A stretch of DNA of 64,000 nucleotides from Tellurirhabdus bombi. GTDB lineage: Bacteria > Bacteroidota > Bacteroidia > Cytophagales > Spirosomataceae. This document shows, one piece after another, positions 20,771 to 30,439 of the stretch (positions are counted from its first letter, which is position 1; each line of letters opens with the position of its first letter). Below the pieces are notes generated by a model. The model had not been told where the DNA came from, searched no databases, and saw nothing but the letters and a program-made list of their open reading frames with translations. The stretch covers positions 3,980,001 through 4,044,000 of the forward strand of contig NZ_CP090557.1 of assembly GCF_021484805.1 (NCBI RefSeq), read 5' to 3'. Made by a program: the position numbers and the translations under genes.

Positions 20771-21853
20771 TTAGAACGTTGTTGTCACCGTTTCAGCGTA
20801 TTGTTTTAGGATATCCATCAGGTGTTCGTTTTCTGCTTCGGTTCCAACCGTGATCCGCAAACAACCTTCGCAGCGCGTCACCCGCGAACGATCCCGCACG
20901 ATCACCTGGTGTTCAATAAGATAGTCAAATATTGCCTTGGGATCATCAAATTGCACCAGTAGAAAGTTGGCATCTGAATGGTGAATACGGCGCACCAGAG
21001 ACGAAGCAAGCAGTTTTTGGTGCAGATCCGTACGCTGTTCCAGGACTTCAGTTACCATTTTATCTTTATCCCCTACATGATTCAAGGCTTCCAGCGCCAG
21101 TTCCTGGGTGGGAGCGCTAATGTTGTAAGGCGGCTTGATTTTGTTCAGTATCTGAATCAATTCTTCGGAGGCAAAACACATTCCCAAACGCAAGGCAGCC
21201 AGCCCCCAGGCTTTCGAAAAGGTTTGCAGCACGACTAGATTTGGGTATTGGTCCAGCAAAGCAGTCATACTTTCCGTTTCGGCAAAGTCAATATAGGCCT
21301 CATCCACAATAACCAGTCCTCTGAACGCATTCAGCAGCGTCAGAATCGTTTCGCGCTCGATTAAATTACCGGTTGGATTATTCGGCGAACAGACAAAAAG
21401 CAGCTTTGTGCTTGGTTGAATGGCTTCCAGAACGGCGGGTAGATCAAGCTGGTAATCCGGCTTCAGCGGAACCTTGATGATGGCCACATCATTGACTGAA
21501 GCACTGACTTCATACATGCCATAAGTTGGCGGCAGAATCAGGATCGAATCTTTTCCCGGCGTACAGGTTGCGCGTACTAGCAGGTCGATAGGCTCATCAG
21601 AACCGTTCCCCAGGAAAATCTGGCTTGGTCGAACGCCTTTCAGGGGCGCGAGCCGCTCTTTGATGGCCCACTGGTAAGGATCGGGATAGCGGTTATAGGT
21701 ATGCTCATTGGGGCCGGATTTGCCAGCGGAGCCATATGGATTTTCGTTCGCATCCAGAAAAACGCCTTCTTTACCGGTGTATTCGTCCCGGGCGGATGAA
21801 TAAGGGGTCAACGTCAGGATGTGCGGGCGGAGAATATCTTGTAATCGAAACAT
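20771..21853 (-). CDS. hisC: histidinol-phosphate aminotransferase
   Basis: A 360-residue PLP-dependent class I/II aminotransferase that converts imidazole-acetol phosphate to histidinol phosphate. The start is ATG 21853 (MFRLQDILRPHILTLTPYSSARDEYTG), giving the usual family length; a 35-residue in-frame extension upstream is rejected. FLGNGSDEPIDLL, SPNNPTGN (substrate and PLP contacts), VDEAYIDF and FSKAWGLAALRLG (PLP Lys) are all present. It belongs with hisD and hisG but is separated from hisD by an oppositely oriented gene, so it needs its own promoter. Confidence 0.95.
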   Translation of the reverse strand: MFRLQDILRPHILTLTPYSSARDEYTGKEGVFLDANENPYGSAGKSGPNEHTYNRYPDPYQWAIKERLAPLKGVRPSQIFLGNGSDEPIDLLVRATCTPGKDSILILPPTYGMYEVSASVNDVAIIKVPLKPDYQLDLPAVLEAIQPSTKLLFVCSPNNPTGNLIERETILTLLNAFRGLVIVDEAYIDFAETESMTALLDQYPNLVVLQTFSKAWGLAALRLGMCFASEELIQILNKIKPPYNISAPTQELALEALNHVGDKDKMVTEVLEQRTDLHQKLLASSLVRRIHHSDANFLLVQFDDPKAIFDYLIEHQVIVRDRSRVTRCEGCLRITVGTEAENEHLMDILKQYAETVTTTF

Positions 21854-21871
21854 GTGCGTAAGACTATTCTG

Positions 21872-21879
21872 CAAATATA
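21872..21879 (-). promoter_or_regulatory. candidate -7 box before hisC
   Basis: TATATTTG on the minus strand, 18 bases before the hisC ATG, predicting a leader of roughly 12 bases. No upstream TTG at standard spacing. It would explain how hisC is transcribed apart from hisGD. Confidence 0.4.
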
Positions 21880-22000
21880 TCACGCTTATTCGGGTCAGGC
21901 TAGTTTCCGGCTCGACTTTCGTCCCATGCCTGTACTTTCTTAAACTGTCCTCGCCCAAATTGAGTTACAAGAACAACGCATACACCAAATTAATCACACC

Positions 22001-22453
22001 ATGAATACGATGCTGAAAGCCATTGCCAGCGGTTTTGCCGGAGCCTGCGCCCTGACTTTACTCCACGAAACTGCCCGCCGTTTTATTCCCGAAGCACCCC
22101 GGGCCGACATCTTAGGAATGCGGGCTATCGCCAAAGGATTGAGAGCCGCCGATCAGGAGCCGCCCGCCGATCCGGAACTACATACGCTCGCCCTTGGCGG
22201 GGACATTCTCTCCAACTCGATTTATTATAGCTTGATTGGTGTTAGCCAGGGCAAAGGTGTACCCGTCCTGGGAGCAGCTTTGGGCGCGTTGGCTGGTGTA
22301 GGAGCCGTGACTTTGCCGGGACCAATGGGGCTGGGAACGGCACCCAGTTCGCGCACACCCGCTACCGCCGCCATGACCGTTGGCTGGTATTTGTTCGGTG
22401 GATTGGTTGCGGCGGCCGCCTACGAATTCCTTGACAAGCAACTGGAAGACTAA
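22001..22453 (+). CDS. hypothetical glycine/alanine-rich membrane protein inside the his cluster
   Basis: A 150-residue protein, not recognised. An N-terminal hydrophobic segment (about 5-22) is followed by a polar stretch (FIPEAPRADILGMRAIAKGL) and two further Gly/Ala-rich hydrophobic stretches (about 88-108 and 125-142), suggesting an inner-membrane protein with three segments. It is on the opposite strand to hisC, hisD and hisG, and its stop lies 3 bp from the hisD stop. Codon use looks normal for the window and the frame is free of Lys/Asn noise, so I take it as real. It has no visible histidine role. Confidence 0.7.
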   Translation: MNTMLKAIASGFAGACALTLLHETARRFIPEAPRADILGMRAIAKGLRAADQEPPADPELHTLALGGDILSNSIYYSLIGVSQGKGVPVLGAALGALAGVGAVTLPGPMGLGTAPSSRTPATAAMTVGWYLFGGLVAAAAYEFLDKQLED

Positions 22454-22456
22454 TAA

Positions 22457-23731
22457 TTAATACGATTCCAGCGACTTTAACCGCAAGGTCACCGCGTGTT
22501 TATGGGCATCCAGCGATTCTGCTTCGGCCATAATTTCAATGGTCGGGCCAATCAGCCGGATCCCTTCTTCAGTAATCTGCTGAACCGTAATTTTTTTAAC
22601 GAAGCTATCCAGCGAAACACCGCTGTACGCCCGCGCAAAGCCGTTGGTTGGCAAGGTATGATTCGTGCCTGATGCATAATCACCGGCTGATTCGGGCGTA
22701 TAATTTCCTAGGAAGATCGAACCGGCATTGTAAATCCGGTCGGCAACAGCCTCGGCGTTTTCAACGCTCAGGATCAGGTGTTCGGCTGCATAGGCATTTA
22801 GCAGGTCGATGGCTTCATCTTCCGTTTCTACCAAGATGGCCCGGCTGTTCTCGATGGCCTTCACCGCGATTTCCTGACGGCTCAACCGCTGCAACTGCGT
22901 AATTAAGGCAATATTGACCATTTCGACCAGCTTTTTACTGGTTGAGATCAACAGCACCTGACTATCAACGCCGTGTTCGGCCTGGGAAAGTAAATCAGCC
23001 GCCACAAACGACGGAACCGCCGAATCGTCGGCATAAACCGCCACTTCAGAAGGACCAGCGGGCATATCGATGGCAATGCCTTCTTTGGCTACCAGCATTT
23101 TAGCCGCCGTTACGTATTGGTTTCCTGGGCCAAAAATCTTGTAAACCTGTGGTACACTTTCCGTCCCGTAGGCCATCGCCGCAATGGCCTGAGCGCCACC
23201 AATGCGAAATAACTTGGTAACACCCACCAGTTTAGCCGCGTACAAAATAGCTGGGTGGTCACTAGGCGTACACAAAACCACTTCCCGACAACCGGCCAAC
23301 TGAGCCGGAATGCCCAGCATCAATACTGTACTGAACAAGGGAGCCGTCCCGCCCGGAATATACAAGCCTACCTTTTCAATCCCCACGCTTTTGCGCCAGC
23401 AGGTTACGCCCGGCATGGTTTCGATTTTCTCGATGGGCTGCTTCTGCGCTTCGTGAAACGTCCGAATGTTGGCATACGCCTGCTGGATGGCCGCTTTCAG
23501 GTCGTCCGATAGCTGGCTTTCTGCCGCCTCAAGCTCGGCTTGGTCAACGGGCTTGCCAGTATACGCGATCTTGTCGAACCGCTGCGAGAGTTCAGCCAAA
23601 GCCCTGTCGCCCGACTCGCGCACTTGCGCCAAAATGGGAGCAACCGCTTTTTCGATGGTTTCGGTAGACTGCACGGGCCGCGCCAGCAAAGCAGGCCATT
23701 CAGAACGGGAAGGTAGGGACGTAATTTGCAT
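22457..23731 (-). CDS. hisD: histidinol dehydrogenase
   Basis: A 424-residue zinc-dependent NAD enzyme catalysing the last two oxidations from histidinol to histidine. Family blocks: YIPGGTAPLFSTVLMLGIPAQLAGC (about 130-154), GGAQAIAAMAYGTESVP, KIFGPGNQYVTAAK, DMPAGPSEVAVYAD, LLSQAEHGVDSQ and the C-terminal SAGDYASGTNHTLPT, which carry the zinc and catalytic His residues. It follows hisG by 65 bp with no terminator between, so hisGD are probably one transcript. It converges with the opposite-strand membrane-protein gene at its 3' end. Confidence 0.96.
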   Translation of the reverse strand: MQITSLPSRSEWPALLARPVQSTETIEKAVAPILAQVRESGDRALAELSQRFDKIAYTGKPVDQAELEAAESQLSDDLKAAIQQAYANIRTFHEAQKQPIEKIETMPGVTCWRKSVGIEKVGLYIPGGTAPLFSTVLMLGIPAQLAGCREVVLCTPSDHPAILYAAKLVGVTKLFRIGGAQAIAAMAYGTESVPQVYKIFGPGNQYVTAAKMLVAKEGIAIDMPAGPSEVAVYADDSAVPSFVAADLLSQAEHGVDSQVLLISTSKKLVEMVNIALITQLQRLSRQEIAVKAIENSRAILVETEDEAIDLLNAYAAEHLILSVENAEAVADRIYNAGSIFLGNYTPESAGDYASGTNHTLPTNGFARAYSGVSLDSFVKKITVQQITEEGIRLIGPTIEIMAEAESLDAHKHAVTLRLKSLESY

Positions 23732-23796
23732 AAACAGGACAACGAAAAAGGGCCCAAGCAGGAAGCTTTTCCAGCCTCCTACCCCACTCTTTTTTA

Positions 23797-24657
23797 CTAA
23801 TAAATCATTTTTTCAATAGGGATAACCAGAATGCCTTCGGCACCAGCCGCCCGAATGGCCTCAATGTTTTCCCAAAAATCGTTTTCATTCAGAACGGAAT
23901 GCACCGACGACCAGCCTTCCGTAGCAAGCGGCGTTACGGTTGGGCTTTTCATGCCCGGTAACAGCGCCGTGATTGTCTCCAACGACGCGTTGGGTGCGTT
24001 CAGTACGATGTATTTATTGTTTTTCGCAGCCTGCACCGATTTAATACGGAACAGCAGTTTGTCAACTAGCTGCTGCTTATTTTCAGCCAGAGCGGGTCTA
24101 CTAACCAGAATGGCTTCGGAGCGAAAAATGGTTTCTACTTCTTTCAAACCGTTGCTCAACAGCGTACTTCCCGACGAAACAATGTCGCAAATTGCTTCGG
24201 CCAGTCCGATTCCTGGCGCAATTTCCACCGAGCCGCTGATTTCGTGAATTTCTGCCGAAACGCCTTTATCCCGCAGGTAATTACCCAGTAAACGTGGATA
24301 GGAAGTAGCGATATTTTTGCCGGCCAGGTCGTGCAGTCCACTCCAATCGGTTCCCCGAGGAATGGCTAGTGACAAACGGCATTTTGAAAAACCCAATCGG
24401 TGGATTGTTTCCACATTCCGGGCGGTTTCAACGGCGACATTTTCGCCGACAATGCCGAGATCGGCAACCCCATCCTCTACGTAACCCGGAATATCATCGT
24501 CCCGTAAAAACAAAAACTCAGCCGGGAAATTAGACGAAACCGACTTTAGCTTTCCGGTGCCATAATCGAACCGAATACCACATTCTTTAAATAACTGGTA
24601 CGAATCTTCACTCAGACGACCGGATTTTTGCAGCGCAATACGTAGCACAGAAGACAC
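23797..24657 (-). CDS. hisG: ATP phosphoribosyltransferase, long form
   Basis: A 286-residue enzyme catalysing the committed step, ATP plus PRPP to phosphoribosyl-ATP. The N-terminal LRIALQKSGRLSEDS, DLGIVGENV and IVSSGSTLLSNGLKEVE (PRPP-binding loop, about 160-176) are diagnostic. The length shows the hexameric long form, with a C-terminal ACT-like domain (about 210-286) for feedback inhibition by histidine, so no HisZ is required. First gene of the minus-strand hisG-hisD transcript; the remaining his genes (hisB, H, A, F, I) are not in the window. Confidence 0.96.
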   Translation of the reverse strand: MSSVLRIALQKSGRLSEDSYQLFKECGIRFDYGTGKLKSVSSNFPAEFLFLRDDDIPGYVEDGVADLGIVGENVAVETARNVETIHRLGFSKCRLSLAIPRGTDWSGLHDLAGKNIATSYPRLLGNYLRDKGVSAEIHEISGSVEIAPGIGLAEAICDIVSSGSTLLSNGLKEVETIFRSEAILVSRPALAENKQQLVDKLLFRIKSVQAAKNNKYIVLNAPNASLETITALLPGMKSPTVTPLATEGWSSVHSVLNENDFWENIEAIRAAGAEGILVIPIEKMIY

Positions 24658-24994: not shown

Positions 24995-27900
24995 ATGAGG
25001 AAACCTTTCTTAACCGCCTTGCTGGCCATGGGCCTCATCCAGGCCGGCTGGTCGCAGGTTACGTTTCCCCGGAACGGTGTCTACGACGAACGACCGGGCT
25101 TGTATGCCTTCACCAACGCAACTATTATTGTCGATCCTCAAACAACCCTGGAAGGAGCTACCCTGCTGATTCGGGACGGGCGGATCGAAGCCATTGGCAA
25201 AACGGTTACCATTCCCGCCGGAACAGTGGTTGCGGATCTGAAAGGAAAACGCATTTATCCGAGCCTGGTTGATATTGATTCGGACTACGGTATGCCCGAA
25301 ATCGTGCGGGCCGGCAGAGGTAATCGCGGGGCAGCACCTCAGTATGAATCCAACAAAAAAGGCGCTTTTGGCTGGAATCAGGCCATTCAGCCCGAAACAG
25401 ACGCCAGTCTGCTCTTCAAGGTGAACAGCGAAAAAGCAACCGAACTGCGTAAGCTAGGTTTTGGGGCCGTGGTCTCTCACGCCCACGACGGTATTGCGCG
25501 GGGAAATTCGGCTCTGGTTACGCTGGCGGATGATCGGGAAAACAACGTGGTACTGAAAAGCCAGGTAGCCGGGCATTATTCCTTCAGCAAAGGCACCTCA
25601 ACGCAAACGTATCCGAACTCGCCGATGGGCGCGGTGGCGCTGCTTCGCCAGACCTACTATGATGCGAAATGGTACAAGCAGCCATCCAAGAAAAAAGAGG
25701 CAAACTTATCCCTGGAAGCCTTTAATAGATTACAGTCGCTACCTTCTATTTTTGAAGCCAATGACCGACTAGGCATCTTGCGGGCCGATAAGATCGGGGA
25801 TGAATTTGGCATTCAGTACATCATTAAAAGCGGCGGGGATGAATACGCCCGGATCGACGAAATCAAAGCAACGAAAGCGCCCCTAATTGTTTCGTTGAAC
25901 TTTCCGCAGGCGTATGATGTCGAGGATTCCTGGGATGCCGATGTGGTTACGCTGACCGAAATGAAGCACTGGGAGCTGGCCCCTACTAACCCGGCAGCAC
26001 TCGCGCAGGCAGGTATTCCGTTTGCCCTGACCACATCCAGACTGCGGAACAAAACAGAATTCTGGGCTAACCTTCGCAAAGCCATTGAAGCGGGTTTGCC
26101 GGAACAGAAGGCCCTCGAAGCCCTCACAACGGCCCCCGCCAAGCTGCTGAAAATCGACGATCAGGTAGGATCGCTGAAAACAGGCATGGTAGCCAACTTC
26201 CTGATTACGACAGATAATCTGTTTAGCGCGGATAATGCTATTCTGGAAAACTGGGTATCTGGAACCCAGTATGTTTACGGCAATAAAAACGCAATCGACG
26301 CGCGCGGAACCTACAACCTGACCATCGGGAATGTAAGCAATCTGAAACTAAACGTAACGGGTAAACTGGATAAACCCGAATACCAGATTACGCAAAACGA
26401 TACGACAAAGCTCTCCCCTAAGGTTTCGTTGAGCGACAACCTGATTTCGATTCAGGTACAACTGGATAAAAAGCAGCCGGGCACCACGCGCCTGACGGGT
26501 TACCGCGAAGGCAACACCCTGAAAGGGGAAGGCGAAATGCCGGACGGCAGCCGCGTAAAATGGTCGGCAACGCTCGCTTCGGCCTACAAACCGGAAGCCC
26601 CAAAAACCGCATCGAAAGAGGCGAAGAAAGCAGAGCTGGGAGCCTTGTCTTTCCCATTTGTTGGAATGGGTAATACGGAAAAACCGAAAGCCGAAACCAT
26701 GTTGATCCGCAATGCGACGGTTTGGACCAACGAAAAAGATGGTGTGTTGCAAAACGCGGACGTGCTGGTTCAGAACGGCAAGATTTCGCAGGTTGGCAAA
26801 GGGTTGAAAGCGCCTGCTGGTGTTAAAGTCATCGACGGAACGGGCAAACACCTGACCAACGGCATCATTGACGAACACTCCCACATCGCTCTGGCTTCGA
26901 TCAACGAAGGTGCCCAAACCAGCTCCGCCGAAGTTCGGATGAGCGACGTGGTTGACTCGGAAGACATCAATATTTACCGGCAATTGGCGGGTGGGGTTAC
27001 CACGTCGCAGTTGTTGCACGGCTCGGCCAATTCGATTGGTGGTCAGTCGGCCCTAATCAAGCTAAAATGGGGCGAATCGCCAGAAGGCTTGTTGATTAAA
27101 GGGGCGGATGGTTTTATCAAATTTGCGTTGGGTGAAAACGTGAAACAGGCGAACTATCCCAATCCAAACGTATTGACTCGTTTCCCACAAACCCGCATGG
27201 GGGTTGAGCAGGTTTATTTTGACCACTTCACCCGCGCCAAAGAATACCAGGCTAGTTGGGATGCTTATAATGGTCTGAAAGACAAAGAAAAAGCCAAAGT
27301 TGAGGCTCCTCGCCGCGACATCGAACTCGACGCTCTTTCTGAAATTCTGAACAAGAAACGCTTCATTACTTGCCACAGCTACGTCCAGTCGGAAATTAAT
27401 ATGCTCCTGAAAGTAGCCGACTCGCTGAAGTTCAAAGTCAACACGTTTACGCACATTCTGGAAGGCTACAAGCTGGCCGATAAAATGGCGCAGCATGGCG
27501 TGGGGGGCTCGACCTTCGGTGATTGGTGGGCTTACAAAATGGAGGTGAAAGACGCCATTCCGTACAATGCGGCGTTGATGCACCGCCAGGGCGTTGTCGT
27601 TTCGATCAACTCGGATGATGCCGAGATGGCCCGCCGCCTGAACCAGGAAGCCGCCAAAGCCGTCGAATACGGTGGCATTGCGGAAGAAGATGCCTGGAAA
27701 ATGGTCACCCTGAACCCGGCGAAACTGCTCCACCTTGACAACCGCCTGGGCTCTATCCGCGCGGGTAAAGATGCCGACCTGGTTCTGTGGAACAACCACC
27801 CGCTGTCGATCTACGCCCGTCCCGAGAAAACAATCATCGACGGAGCCGTTTATTTTGACCTGGAGAAAGAAGAGCAGAAGCACGAAGCCATGCAGAAAGA

Positions 27901-28057
27901 GCGGGCGCGCCTGATTCAGAAACTGCTGACCGCTAAAGCAGGGGGTGCGTCAACCGCCCGCCCAACGTTCCGCCGGAGCCGGATGTGGCATTGCGAAGAC
28001 GTAGAAGGCATCATTGCCGAAGGAGAAGAGGAGTCTAACCAGCAGGAACAGAAGTAA
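24995..28057 (+). CDS. exported double-module amidohydrolase (one module degenerate)
   Basis: A 1020-residue protein with a signal peptide (about 1-20, GWSQ). Two amidohydrolase modules are fused. Module 1 (about 35-430) keeps the fold signatures, but its metal site reads DIDSD (D95, D97) instead of HxH and it lacks the late SD motif. Module 2 (about 565-980) has DEHSH (H628, H630), CHSYVQSE, THILEGY and SINSDD, so it should bind metals and be catalytic, like imidazolonepropionase or dipeptidase-type enzymes. A beta-rich linker with GYREGNTLKGEGEMPDG joins them. The second amidohydrolase gene starts 3 bp downstream, so expression is surely coupled. Substrate unknown; hydrolysis of a cyclic amide or peptide in the periplasm is inferred. 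Confidence 0.88.
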   Translation: MRKPFLTALLAMGLIQAGWSQVTFPRNGVYDERPGLYAFTNATIIVDPQTTLEGATLLIRDGRIEAIGKTVTIPAGTVVADLKGKRIYPSLVDIDSDYGMPEIVRAGRGNRGAAPQYESNKKGAFGWNQAIQPETDASLLFKVNSEKATELRKLGFGAVVSHAHDGIARGNSALVTLADDRENNVVLKSQVAGHYSFSKGTSTQTYPNSPMGAVALLRQTYYDAKWYKQPSKKKEANLSLEAFNRLQSLPSIFEANDRLGILRADKIGDEFGIQYIIKSGGDEYARIDEIKATKAPLIVSLNFPQAYDVEDSWDADVVTLTEMKHWELAPTNPAALAQAGIPFALTTSRLRNKTEFWANLRKAIEAGLPEQKALEALTTAPAKLLKIDDQVGSLKTGMVANFLITTDNLFSADNAILENWVSGTQYVYGNKNAIDARGTYNLTIGNVSNLKLNVTGKLDKPEYQITQNDTTKLSPKVSLSDNLISIQVQLDKKQPGTTRLTGYREGNTLKGEGEMPDGSRVKWSATLASAYKPEAPKTASKEAKKAELGALSFPFVGMGNTEKPKAETMLIRNATVWTNEKDGVLQNADVLVQNGKISQVGKGLKAPAGVKVIDGTGKHLTNGIIDEHSHIALASINEGAQTSSAEVRMSDVVDSEDINIYRQLAGGVTTSQLLHGSANSIGGQSALIKLKWGESPEGLLIKGADGFIKFALGENVKQANYPNPNVLTRFPQTRMGVEQVYFDHFTRAKEYQASWDAYNGLKDKEKAKVEAPRRDIELDALSEILNKKRFITCHSYVQSEINMLLKVADSLKFKVNTFTHILEGYKLADKMAQHGVGGSTFGDWWAYKMEVKDAIPYNAALMHRQGVVVSINSDDAEMARRLNQEAAKAVEYGGIAEEDAWKMVTLNPAKLLHLDNRLGSIRAGKDADLVLWNNHPLSIYARPEKTIIDGAVYFDLEKEEQKHEAMQKERARLIQKLLTAKAGGASTARPTFRRSRMWHCEDVEGIIAEGEEESNQQEQK

Positions 28058-28060
28058 GCC

Positions 28061-29380
28061 ATGAAAAAAACGATCATCACCCTACTTTCTGCCTTTGCGC
28101 TCCTAACGGGTGCGAGGGCGCAAAATCCTGCCGCCGCCAAGCCTCAAACCCGCACCATCGCCCTCACCGGCGCTACCATTCACGTGGGAAACGGGCAGGT
28201 TATTCAGAACGGAACCATTGTTTTCGATAAAGGCGTCATTACGGCAATCGGCGAAGCCAGCACCCCAACCAGCGGGGCGGAAGTTATTAATGTAAGCGGA
28301 AAGCACATCTACCCCGGCCTGATTTCGCCCGCCTCGACGGTGGGTTTGCAGGAAATCGGGGCGGTTCGGTCCACGCTTGACTTTAACGAAGTGGGCTATA
28401 TTAACCCAAACGTTCGGGCGTTGATTGCCTACAATACGGATTCGGAAATCATCCCAACCATTCGCAACAACGGGGTTTTGCTGACGCAGGCGATGCCGAT
28501 GGGCGGTGTTATTTCGGGAAGTTCGTCGGTGATGCAAGCCGACGGCTGGAACTGGGAAGACGCCGTTTTGCACAAAGATGACGGCATCTGGATGAATTGG
28601 CCGGGTTATTTTATCCGGGATTTCAACTTTGAAGATTTTTCAGCCAGCCTGAAGAAAAACGAAAAACGAGAAGAGGCGCTGAACCCATTGCGCGCCACTT
28701 TTGCCGATGCGAAAGCGTACATTGAGCTTAAAAACCCAACGCCAAAAAACCTGAAGTTTGAGGCCATGCGCGGTCTGTTCGACGGCACGCAGAATCTGTA
28801 TATTCGGGTTGACTACAGCAAGGACATCATTGAGTCGGTTCGCTTTGTCAAGGAGATGGGCATTAAAAAACCGGTTGTTGTTGGCGGCGAAGACGCGGCC
28901 CGCGTGGTCGATTTCCTGAAAACGGAGAACGTGCCGGTCATTTTGAGCGCCTTACACCGTCTGCCTACCCGCGACGATGAAGCCGTTGATTTGCCGTACC
29001 GCCTGCCAAGTATTCTGCAAAAAGCGGGTGTCACCGTTGCCCTTAGCTACGCTGAAGAGTGGTGGCGCACCCGTAACCTGCCTTTCCTGGCGGGAACGGC
29101 CTCGGGATTTGGCATTACCGACCGGGAAGAAGCGTTAAAGCTGATTACGTCTAATACCGCTAAAATTATGGGTATTGATAAGAAGGTTGGGACGCTGGAA
29201 AAAGGAAAACATGCCACGCTGTTTGTCTCTAAAGGCGATGCGCTCGACATGCGGACCAACGTTGTGGAGCAGGTATTTATCCAGGGTCGGAATGTCAATC
29301 TGGATGACCGCCACAAGCGCTTATACCATATCTACAAAGATAAATTTAGCCAGGAAAAGCCGCTGGCCGAGAAAAAGTAA
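28061..29380 (+). CDS. exported amidohydrolase-fold protein lacking the HxH metal site
   Basis: A 439-residue protein with a signal peptide (about 1-20, ARAQ). It has the N-terminal beta-sandwich (TGATIHVGNGQVIQNGTI) and barrel of amidohydrolases, plus the C-terminal SNTAKIMGIDKKVGTLEKGKHA block. But where PGLIDxHxH is expected it reads PGLISPAST (S89, A91, T93), and no clear later His pair or Asp is seen, so catalysis by the usual route is unlikely. Translationally coupled to the 1020-residue protein and closed by a terminator. It may be a structural or substrate-binding partner of that protein. Confidence 0.85.
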   Translation: MKKTIITLLSAFALLTGARAQNPAAAKPQTRTIALTGATIHVGNGQVIQNGTIVFDKGVITAIGEASTPTSGAEVINVSGKHIYPGLISPASTVGLQEIGAVRSTLDFNEVGYINPNVRALIAYNTDSEIIPTIRNNGVLLTQAMPMGGVISGSSSVMQADGWNWEDAVLHKDDGIWMNWPGYFIRDFNFEDFSASLKKNEKREEALNPLRATFADAKAYIELKNPTPKNLKFEAMRGLFDGTQNLYIRVDYSKDIIESVRFVKEMGIKKPVVVGGEDAARVVDFLKTENVPVILSALHRLPTRDDEAVDLPYRLPSILQKAGVTVALSYAEEWWRTRNLPFLAGTASGFGITDREEALKLITSNTAKIMGIDKKVGTLEKGKHATLFVSKGDALDMRTNVVEQVFIQGRNVNLDDRHKRLYHIYKDKFSQEKPLAEKK

Positions 29381-29405
29381 TAATTCGTTAAGTTCTTACA
29401 ACCGG

Positions 29406-29440
29406 AAAGCGGATCGACGAAGTGTCGGTCCGCTTTTTTT
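29406..29440 (+). terminator. terminator of the amidohydrolase operon
   Basis: A 13-bp stem with one mismatch (AAAGCGGATCGAC with GTCGGTCCGCTTT), a 5-base loop and a T7 run, 26 bp past the stop. Confidence 0.85.
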
Positions 29441-29488: not shown

Positions 29489-30439
29489 ATGATCCGCATC
29501 TTCCAGCAAGACGAAACCGCCGTTCGAAAAGTCAAAGACATTGAATCGTTTTCCAATACCGAACGCACCCTCTGGGTCGATTTGCAGAACCCTTCCAAAA
29601 CAGAGATCAAAAGCGTTGAAGAAAAGTTTGACGTTGATTTTTTGTCGCAGCAGGAACAGTTGGAAATCGAAAGCAGTTCGCGGTATATCGAGGAAGATGA
29701 ACACCTGATTGCCAACTCCAACTTTCTAATTCCCGATAAGGAGCAGCGTTACATTAACGTGCCGGTCAGCTTCATGCTCAAGGACGATGTGCTGTTTACC
29801 TACCGCCACGCCGACCTGAAATCGTTTGCCGATACGGTCAAGAAAATCAAATCCCGCCGGGCGGTTTTCGACGACGGGGCGCAGATTATGATCAACATTT
29901 TCGAATCTCGCGTTGATTATGATGCCGACTTAATCGAAGCTGTTTCGCAGGAGGTCAAGGCCATTAACCGCCAGTTGGATCTGGATGCCAAGCTGGATAA
30001 GAAGATGCTGCTGCGTATCAATGACTACCAGGAATTGACAATGCTGATTCGGGAGAATGTAGTTGATAAACAGCGCGTTATTTCCGCCATGATCCGCTCC
30101 GACGGCTGGTTCAATGACCTGGAACAGCGCCGGCTTCGCACGCTGATTAAAGACATTAATTCCCTGATCGAACACACGAATTTCATTTTCGAACGATTGG
30201 AATTTTTGCAGGATACGTTTCTTGGTTTGGTCAATCTTGAGCAAAACCAGATCATTAAGATATTCACCGTTCTATCGCTGGTGTTCCTGCCGCCCACGCT
30301 TATTGCCAGCATCTACGGAATGAATTTTGCCAATATGCCCGAAGTGAACTGGCAGTATGGCTACCTGTTCGCTATTGGACTGATGGCTTTATCTTCGCTC
30401 GTTACGATCTGGATATTTAAAAAGAAAAACTGGCTATAA
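29489..30439 (+). CDS. corA: CorA-family magnesium/cobalt channel
   Basis: A 316-residue inner-membrane divalent-metal channel. The long cytoplasmic N-terminal domain (about 1-250) is alpha/beta then helical. Two C-terminal transmembrane helices follow, with the pore signature YGMNFANMPE (about 278-287) between them, containing GMN. The Lys-rich end FKKKNW fits the cytoplasmic C-terminus. Pentameric CorA channels gate Mg2+ uptake. Its last 6 bases overlap the convergent EEP-family gene, and no terminator was seen between them. Confidence 0.93.
   Translation: MIRIFQQDETAVRKVKDIESFSNTERTLWVDLQNPSKTEIKSVEEKFDVDFLSQQEQLEIESSSRYIEEDEHLIANSNFLIPDKEQRYINVPVSFMLKDDVLFTYRHADLKSFADTVKKIKSRRAVFDDGAQIMINIFESRVDYDADLIEAVSQEVKAINRQLDLDAKLDKKMLLRINDYQELTMLIRENVVDKQRVISAMIRSDGWFNDLEQRRLRTLIKDINSLIEHTNFIFERLEFLQDTFLGLVNLEQNQIIKIFTVLSLVFLPPTLIASIYGMNFANMPEVNWQYGYLFAIGLMALSSLVTIWIFKKKNWL

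Follow-up and report, generated by a model that had tools for sequence, protein, structure and literature searches.

Organization of the locus

What does an amidohydrolase gain from being encoded together with two barrels of its own family that lack metal ligands? This question is raised by two adjacent genes on the plus strand of the window analysed here (a stretch of 64,000 nucleotides from Tellurirhabdus bombi), both of whose open reading frames lie where a first, sequence-only reading of this DNA had placed them. The first gene, P1 (24995..28057, 1020 aa; delimited by ORF, Pfam and the AlphaFold2 model), encodes a putative signal peptide (MRKPFLTALLAMGLIQAGWS, 24995..25054), the pseudo-barrel M1 (25085..26284), a domain of beta strands seen in the AlphaFold2 model (26285..26674), the active barrel M2 (26675..27889) and a tail with the cysteine C1000 (codon 27992..27994). 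The second, P3 (28061..29380, 439 aa; ORF and Pfam), consists of a putative signal peptide and the pseudo-barrel M3 (28136..29335). Both N-termini were read by eye and look like signal peptides. The beta domain has no Pfam family (26285-26662 searched), its best match (E 0.13) lying below the cut-off.

P1 and P3 are separated by only 3 bp (TAA GCC ATG), as noted earlier, and P3 is followed by an intrinsic terminator (29404..29438, plus strand; 15-pair stem, -23 kcal/mol, z -5.49), a hairpin whose 3' arm passes into a T run and which was spotted by eye, a consensus terminator scan being without it. Given the short gap and the hairpin, P1 and P3 appear to share a short mRNA, and the terminator likely marks the end of the two-gene unit. 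Three genes on the minus strand (20771-24657) diverge from P1 and resemble hisC, hisD and hisG by eye; two of these are separated by an ORF on the plus strand (22001-22453). A gene for a CorA-family transporter (29489-30439, E 2.9e-66) lies downstream of the terminator. No flanking gene recurs within a few kb of other such loci: the top neighbour cluster occurs in only 18 of 150, which speaks against a larger conserved operon and makes the P1-P3 unit seem complete in itself.

Family membership and substrate

The three barrels are all members of the 3ooq family, matching this Thermotoga maritima MSB8 amidohydrolase in sequence over nearly its full length and far above other branches of the superfamily. 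The profile of M1 finds 3ooq at E 2.3e-53 (next best 8.3e-18) and that of M3 at E 2.1e-68 (next best 1.1e-17); the models of M2 and M3, the latter a full barrel, match it with Z 47.8 and 44.9, the next entries being at about 25 in both cases. Pfam Amidohydro_1 (cut-off 25 bits) is found in P1 (82.4 bits), in P3 (31.5) and in M1 alone (28.8). The amidohydrolase fold is therefore recognizable in M3 by profile and model and in M1 by the sequence profiles (3ooq, Pfam); M1 has mostly high pLDDT in the P1 model, with no structural match listed for it alone. Unlike the three modules here, 3ooq has one intact barrel per chain. Open-licence literature gave no function for it, and neither 3ooq nor TM0814 was found alongside 'amidohydrolase'. 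The CRMP or dihydropyrimidinase-related proteins are eukaryotic, cytosolic and held to lack catalytic activity despite their amidohydrolase fold; they represent another branch of the superfamily with only partial matches to P1.

Among the NCBIfam models matched (67 by P1, 42 by P3), the top 25 for each protein all scored far below their cut-offs, e.g. D-hydantoinase/dihydropyrimidinase TIGR02033 (P1 63.4 bits vs 393.25) and Xaa-Pro dipeptidase NF051886 (P1 71.4 and P3 39.1 bits vs 500), so we assign no substrate to the pair. NagA, hydantoinase, imidazolonepropionase and Xaa-Pro dipeptidase, among others, were discarded as substrate guides on the same grounds, and the hydantoins or cyclic dipeptides proposed in the sequence-only reading found no backing in NCBIfam or the literature.

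Conservation across Bacteroidota

Among 70 Bacteroidota loci (L034-L103) fetched for their three-module-type M3, M1, M2 and M3 follow each other in this order on one strand in 63, and M3 stands alone in seven. M1 and M2 form one gene in 33 of these 63 loci and two genes in the other 30. Where M1 has a gene of its own, the protein is either long (~560-600 aa) or shorter (~440-500 aa), and the shorter version presumably lacks the beta domain. The loci with M3 alone fall in three families (f21, f23 and f26) where P1 and P3 are unlinked; a full P1 was present elsewhere in the genome in all ten cases tested, and six further genomes in this test had only the M2'/M3' type described below. In two genomes assembled as one contig each (G043 and G059), P1 and P3 lie about 1.0 and 1.4 Mb apart.

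A search starting from P1 gave a similar picture. The best 80 of at least 592 pattern matches in genome contigs are named loci of Bacteroidota (in the broad GTDB sense) by title, including Spirosoma, Dyadobacter, Pontibacter, Hymenobacter, Pedobacter and Chitinophaga, with one titled Ignavibacteria. Among these best 80, an M3 on the same strand accompanies P1 in 73; the two lie no more than 168 bp apart in 70 of them and 415 to 1582 bp apart in three. Of the seven genomes without a neighbouring M3, six encode a complete M3 at another site and one shows only a 61-residue piece. Large open-frame counts in four genomes (G198, G371, G318, G381) suggested a triple fusion M1-M2-M3, which was absent from all four fetched loci, two of them being without M3 in the stretch. 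Conservation of the pair across the phylum is thus borne out both by gene order and by co-occurrence where the genes lie apart. Frequent separation of the two genes had been named in advance as grounds for giving up a fixed partnership; separation does occur, in a minority of loci, and both genes are still found in the genome there.

P3-like matches (E<=1e-20, M2'/M3' type included) were found in 93 of 148 Bacteroidota genomes, and an M2-M3 query (E<=1e-100) had matches in 186 of 395 genomes. The three-module set is not universal, since about half of the searched genomes have nothing above the cut-off. The listed genomes of one family (f16) and part of one genus (g10, other genomes of which do match) gave no match at these cut-offs, which suggests that some lineages can do without the set. 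Open-licence literature searches returned nothing on this gene pair, and the excerpted text of a P. gingivalis vesicle paper names only other amidohydrolases (PMC7847538).

A second family of adjacent pairs consists of an intact barrel, M2', beside a ligand-free one, M3' (L104-L113). These ten loci come from several Bacteroidota families and repeat the order of intact and ligand-free barrel seen in M2-M3 here, with ~30% identity to the modules of the window and no M1 detected beside them.

Loss of the metal site

An HMM trained on M2 and M2' sequences served to score the metal ligands, unaligned positions being counted as not kept. M2 has all five ligands (H628, H630, H794, H820 and D874 in the window) in 154 of 154 sequences, as does M2' in ten of ten. 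No ligand is kept in 131 of 154 M1 modules, one in 19 and two in four, with the reservation that M1 is often unaligned at H820 (119/154) and H794 (105/154); in a joint MAFFT alignment of 64 M1, none has a His at H820 and the other ligand positions hold mixed letters. M3' keeps none in four and one in six of ten cases. M3 keeps none in 51 of 144 sequences, one in 61 and two in 32, and some M3 may therefore have an altered metal site; the Asp ligand is kept in 61 M3. The sequences are nearly all distinct (152 M1, 152 M2 and 142 M3). In the window, M1 has D, D and S at three aligned ligand positions, the other two being unaligned, and M3 has A, T, R, G and E at the five. The HxH, H, H, D set of catalytic members is consequently found in M2 and missing from M1 and M3.

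The residues picked out earlier are all as described (D95/D97 at the HxH place of M1, H628/H630 in M2, and S89, A91 and T93 in M3), and the loss of ligands in M1 and M3 beside an intact M2 proved to extend beyond HxH. What did not hold is D95/D97 as a conserved replacement of HxH: M1 relatives carry many residues there, and the Asp pair is a local feature. Ligands supplied from elsewhere in the chain were considered for M1, which contains an HAH (in SHAHDG), and were rejected because this motif falls in a different part of the alignment and the relatives inspected do not retain its second His. Judged from the alignments, the metal-site loss in M1 and M3 is not local decay, and the Pfam family name given to all three modules hides that M1 and M3 cannot be ordinary amidohydrolases.

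Selection and evolutionary history

Median dN/dS values were 0.166 for M1, 0.131 for M2 and 0.113 for M3, with a maximum of 0.30, in 13 close pairs (dS below 1.5); six of these pairs are drawn from one group of four loci, and the window is in none. On these ratios all three modules, dead ones included, are under purifying selection.

In a 219-row tree, the sequences of each module type group into a single clade. When rooted with 3ooq as a single outgroup (14 loci for M1-M3, plus seven of ten M2' and M3'), M1, M3 and M3', all ligand-free, cluster in a single clade (100/97), within which M1 and M3 group together (100/95), and M2 and M2' remain outside, M2' being nearer to the ligand-free clade than M2 with weaker support (92/85). 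The unrooted tree likewise splits ligand-free from intact modules (100/98.9), and the same split can be read from the drawing of the 219-row tree, where the branch joining M1 and M3 is very short (0.0033). In the simplest history, the metal site was probably lost once and the inactive line doubled later, although long M1 branches, the odd composition of some M1 rows and the single outgroup weaken this reading. An ancestral duplicate would have lost its metal site; the inactive line would have persisted beside an active one and given rise, by a further duplication, to M1, which in the window is fused in front of M2, and to M3, which is made from the next gene. Distances among loci are correlated between the modules (r 0.88-0.92; partial 0.34-0.62; 135 loci), for which shared ancestry may be the cause.

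Structural models and the role of the inactive barrels

Two large domains without a set relative placement would give a pTM near 0.5. AlphaFold2 modelled P1 without its signal peptide at pLDDT 86.9 and pTM 0.83 (44 sequences), and an M2-M3 read-through chain of 906 residues, which tethers the barrels, at pLDDT 83.0 and pTM 0.84 (32 paired sequences). As both pTM values are well above ~0.5, the packing of M1 on M2 and of M2 on M3 appears defined in the models. Modelling as single chains thus yielded confident two-barrel models for M1-M2 and for the tethered M2-M3; contact between P1 and P3 as separate chains is a prediction.

Synteny, fused and split gene forms, co-occurrence, selection and the two-barrel models together uphold the view of three modules with one intact site, made from one transcript in a fixed partnership. 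We therefore favour, with a probability of roughly 0.6, an exported hetero-oligomeric metal hydrolase of the 3ooq family in which M2 is catalytic and the pseudo-barrels M1 and M3 are needed as partners; the physical complex, the need for partners and a role at the M2 site are predictions. The pseudo-barrels would retain the fold and, by implication, the subunit contacts of a former homo-oligomer, so that M2 would do the chemistry and be kept in the oligomer by M1 and M3, which are most likely needed for assembly, stability and the shaping or gating of the M2 entrance. A fixed complex with decayed barrels had already been suggested, and a fixed partnership is supported; the binding or regulatory role given to the barrels fared less well, scaffolding or completion of the M2 site being at least as likely.

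The dead barrels might instead be binding or sensing subunits that hold a substrate, a product or a cell-wall or peptide fragment and feed or regulate M2. This would fit barrels that are modelled complete and kept under purifying selection, as well as invariant M3 residues such as R110, P121, G128 and Y195 (numbering of alignment A5, 41 rows), but the ligand positions of M1 and M3 differ from clade to clade, which disfavours one kept pocket chemistry, and we consider such a role doubtful though worth keeping in mind. It is quite unlikely that the three barrels are merely co-inherited neighbours, with M1 and M3 functioning separately and never binding M2: the unlinked genes in three families and the seven of the best 80 (of at least 592) named loci without an adjacent M3 would suit this explanation, whereas co-occurrence that persists without linkage, the fusion of M1 to M2 in about half of the ordered loci and the confident joint models argue against it. 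It is similarly unlikely that M1 and M3 act independently as hydrolases that use another set of catalytic residues or metals, for although both are under purifying selection and some M3 keep two old ligands or the Asp, neither module ever has more than two of the five, and the invariant columns of A5 and A7, inspected by eye, hold no His/Asp/Glu/Cys set able to replace those lost.

A conserved cysteine in the tail of the active chain

The tail cysteine of the active chain is a new observation. A Cys occurs after M2 in 144 of 153 three-module chains of other loci (L034-L103, L114-L123, L192-L271), where 30.2 would be predicted by the Cys frequency in the remainder of each chain, and it is as common in fused (116/123) as in split genes (28/30); by comparison, only one of ten tails in the M2'/M3' pairs has it. 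The tail is otherwise variable, with more than one Cys in two of the M2 tails, and its end is modelled with low confidence in P1. His precedes the tail Cys in 55 of 144 chains, and Glu or Asp follows it in 79 of 144. A disulfide with C793 was rejected as a rule because the tail Cys persists in 11 sequences whose residue at that place is S, A or T, and one with P3 because the P3 of the window has no Cys.

The tail Cys is possibly a latch, a metal ligand or a redox site. In a more speculative version of the partnership, which we regard as improbable, the pseudo-barrels would form part of the M2 site or gate it, and the thiol of the disordered tail would latch onto the metal site or a partner, giving a switch controlled by redox state or metal. 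If true, this would be a widespread exported amidohydrolase of Bacteroidota with a redox or metal-controlled switch.

Implications

In the ATCase-pseudo-dihydroorotase complex of Pseudomonas aeruginosa, the active partner is a transcarbamoylase and not a barrel of the same family. The inactive dihydroorotase homologue is reported to be necessary for ATCase activity (PMC7053772), which makes this complex the nearest tested precedent found for an inactive homologue needed by its partner. Unlike there, the partnership proposed here would join an exported active barrel with two inactive paralogues of itself. M2 with M1 and M3 would represent an ancient and widely distributed example of an enzyme family keeping inactive copies of itself as partners, and it turns the role of a dead enzyme copy for the live one into a question that can be tested with two genes.
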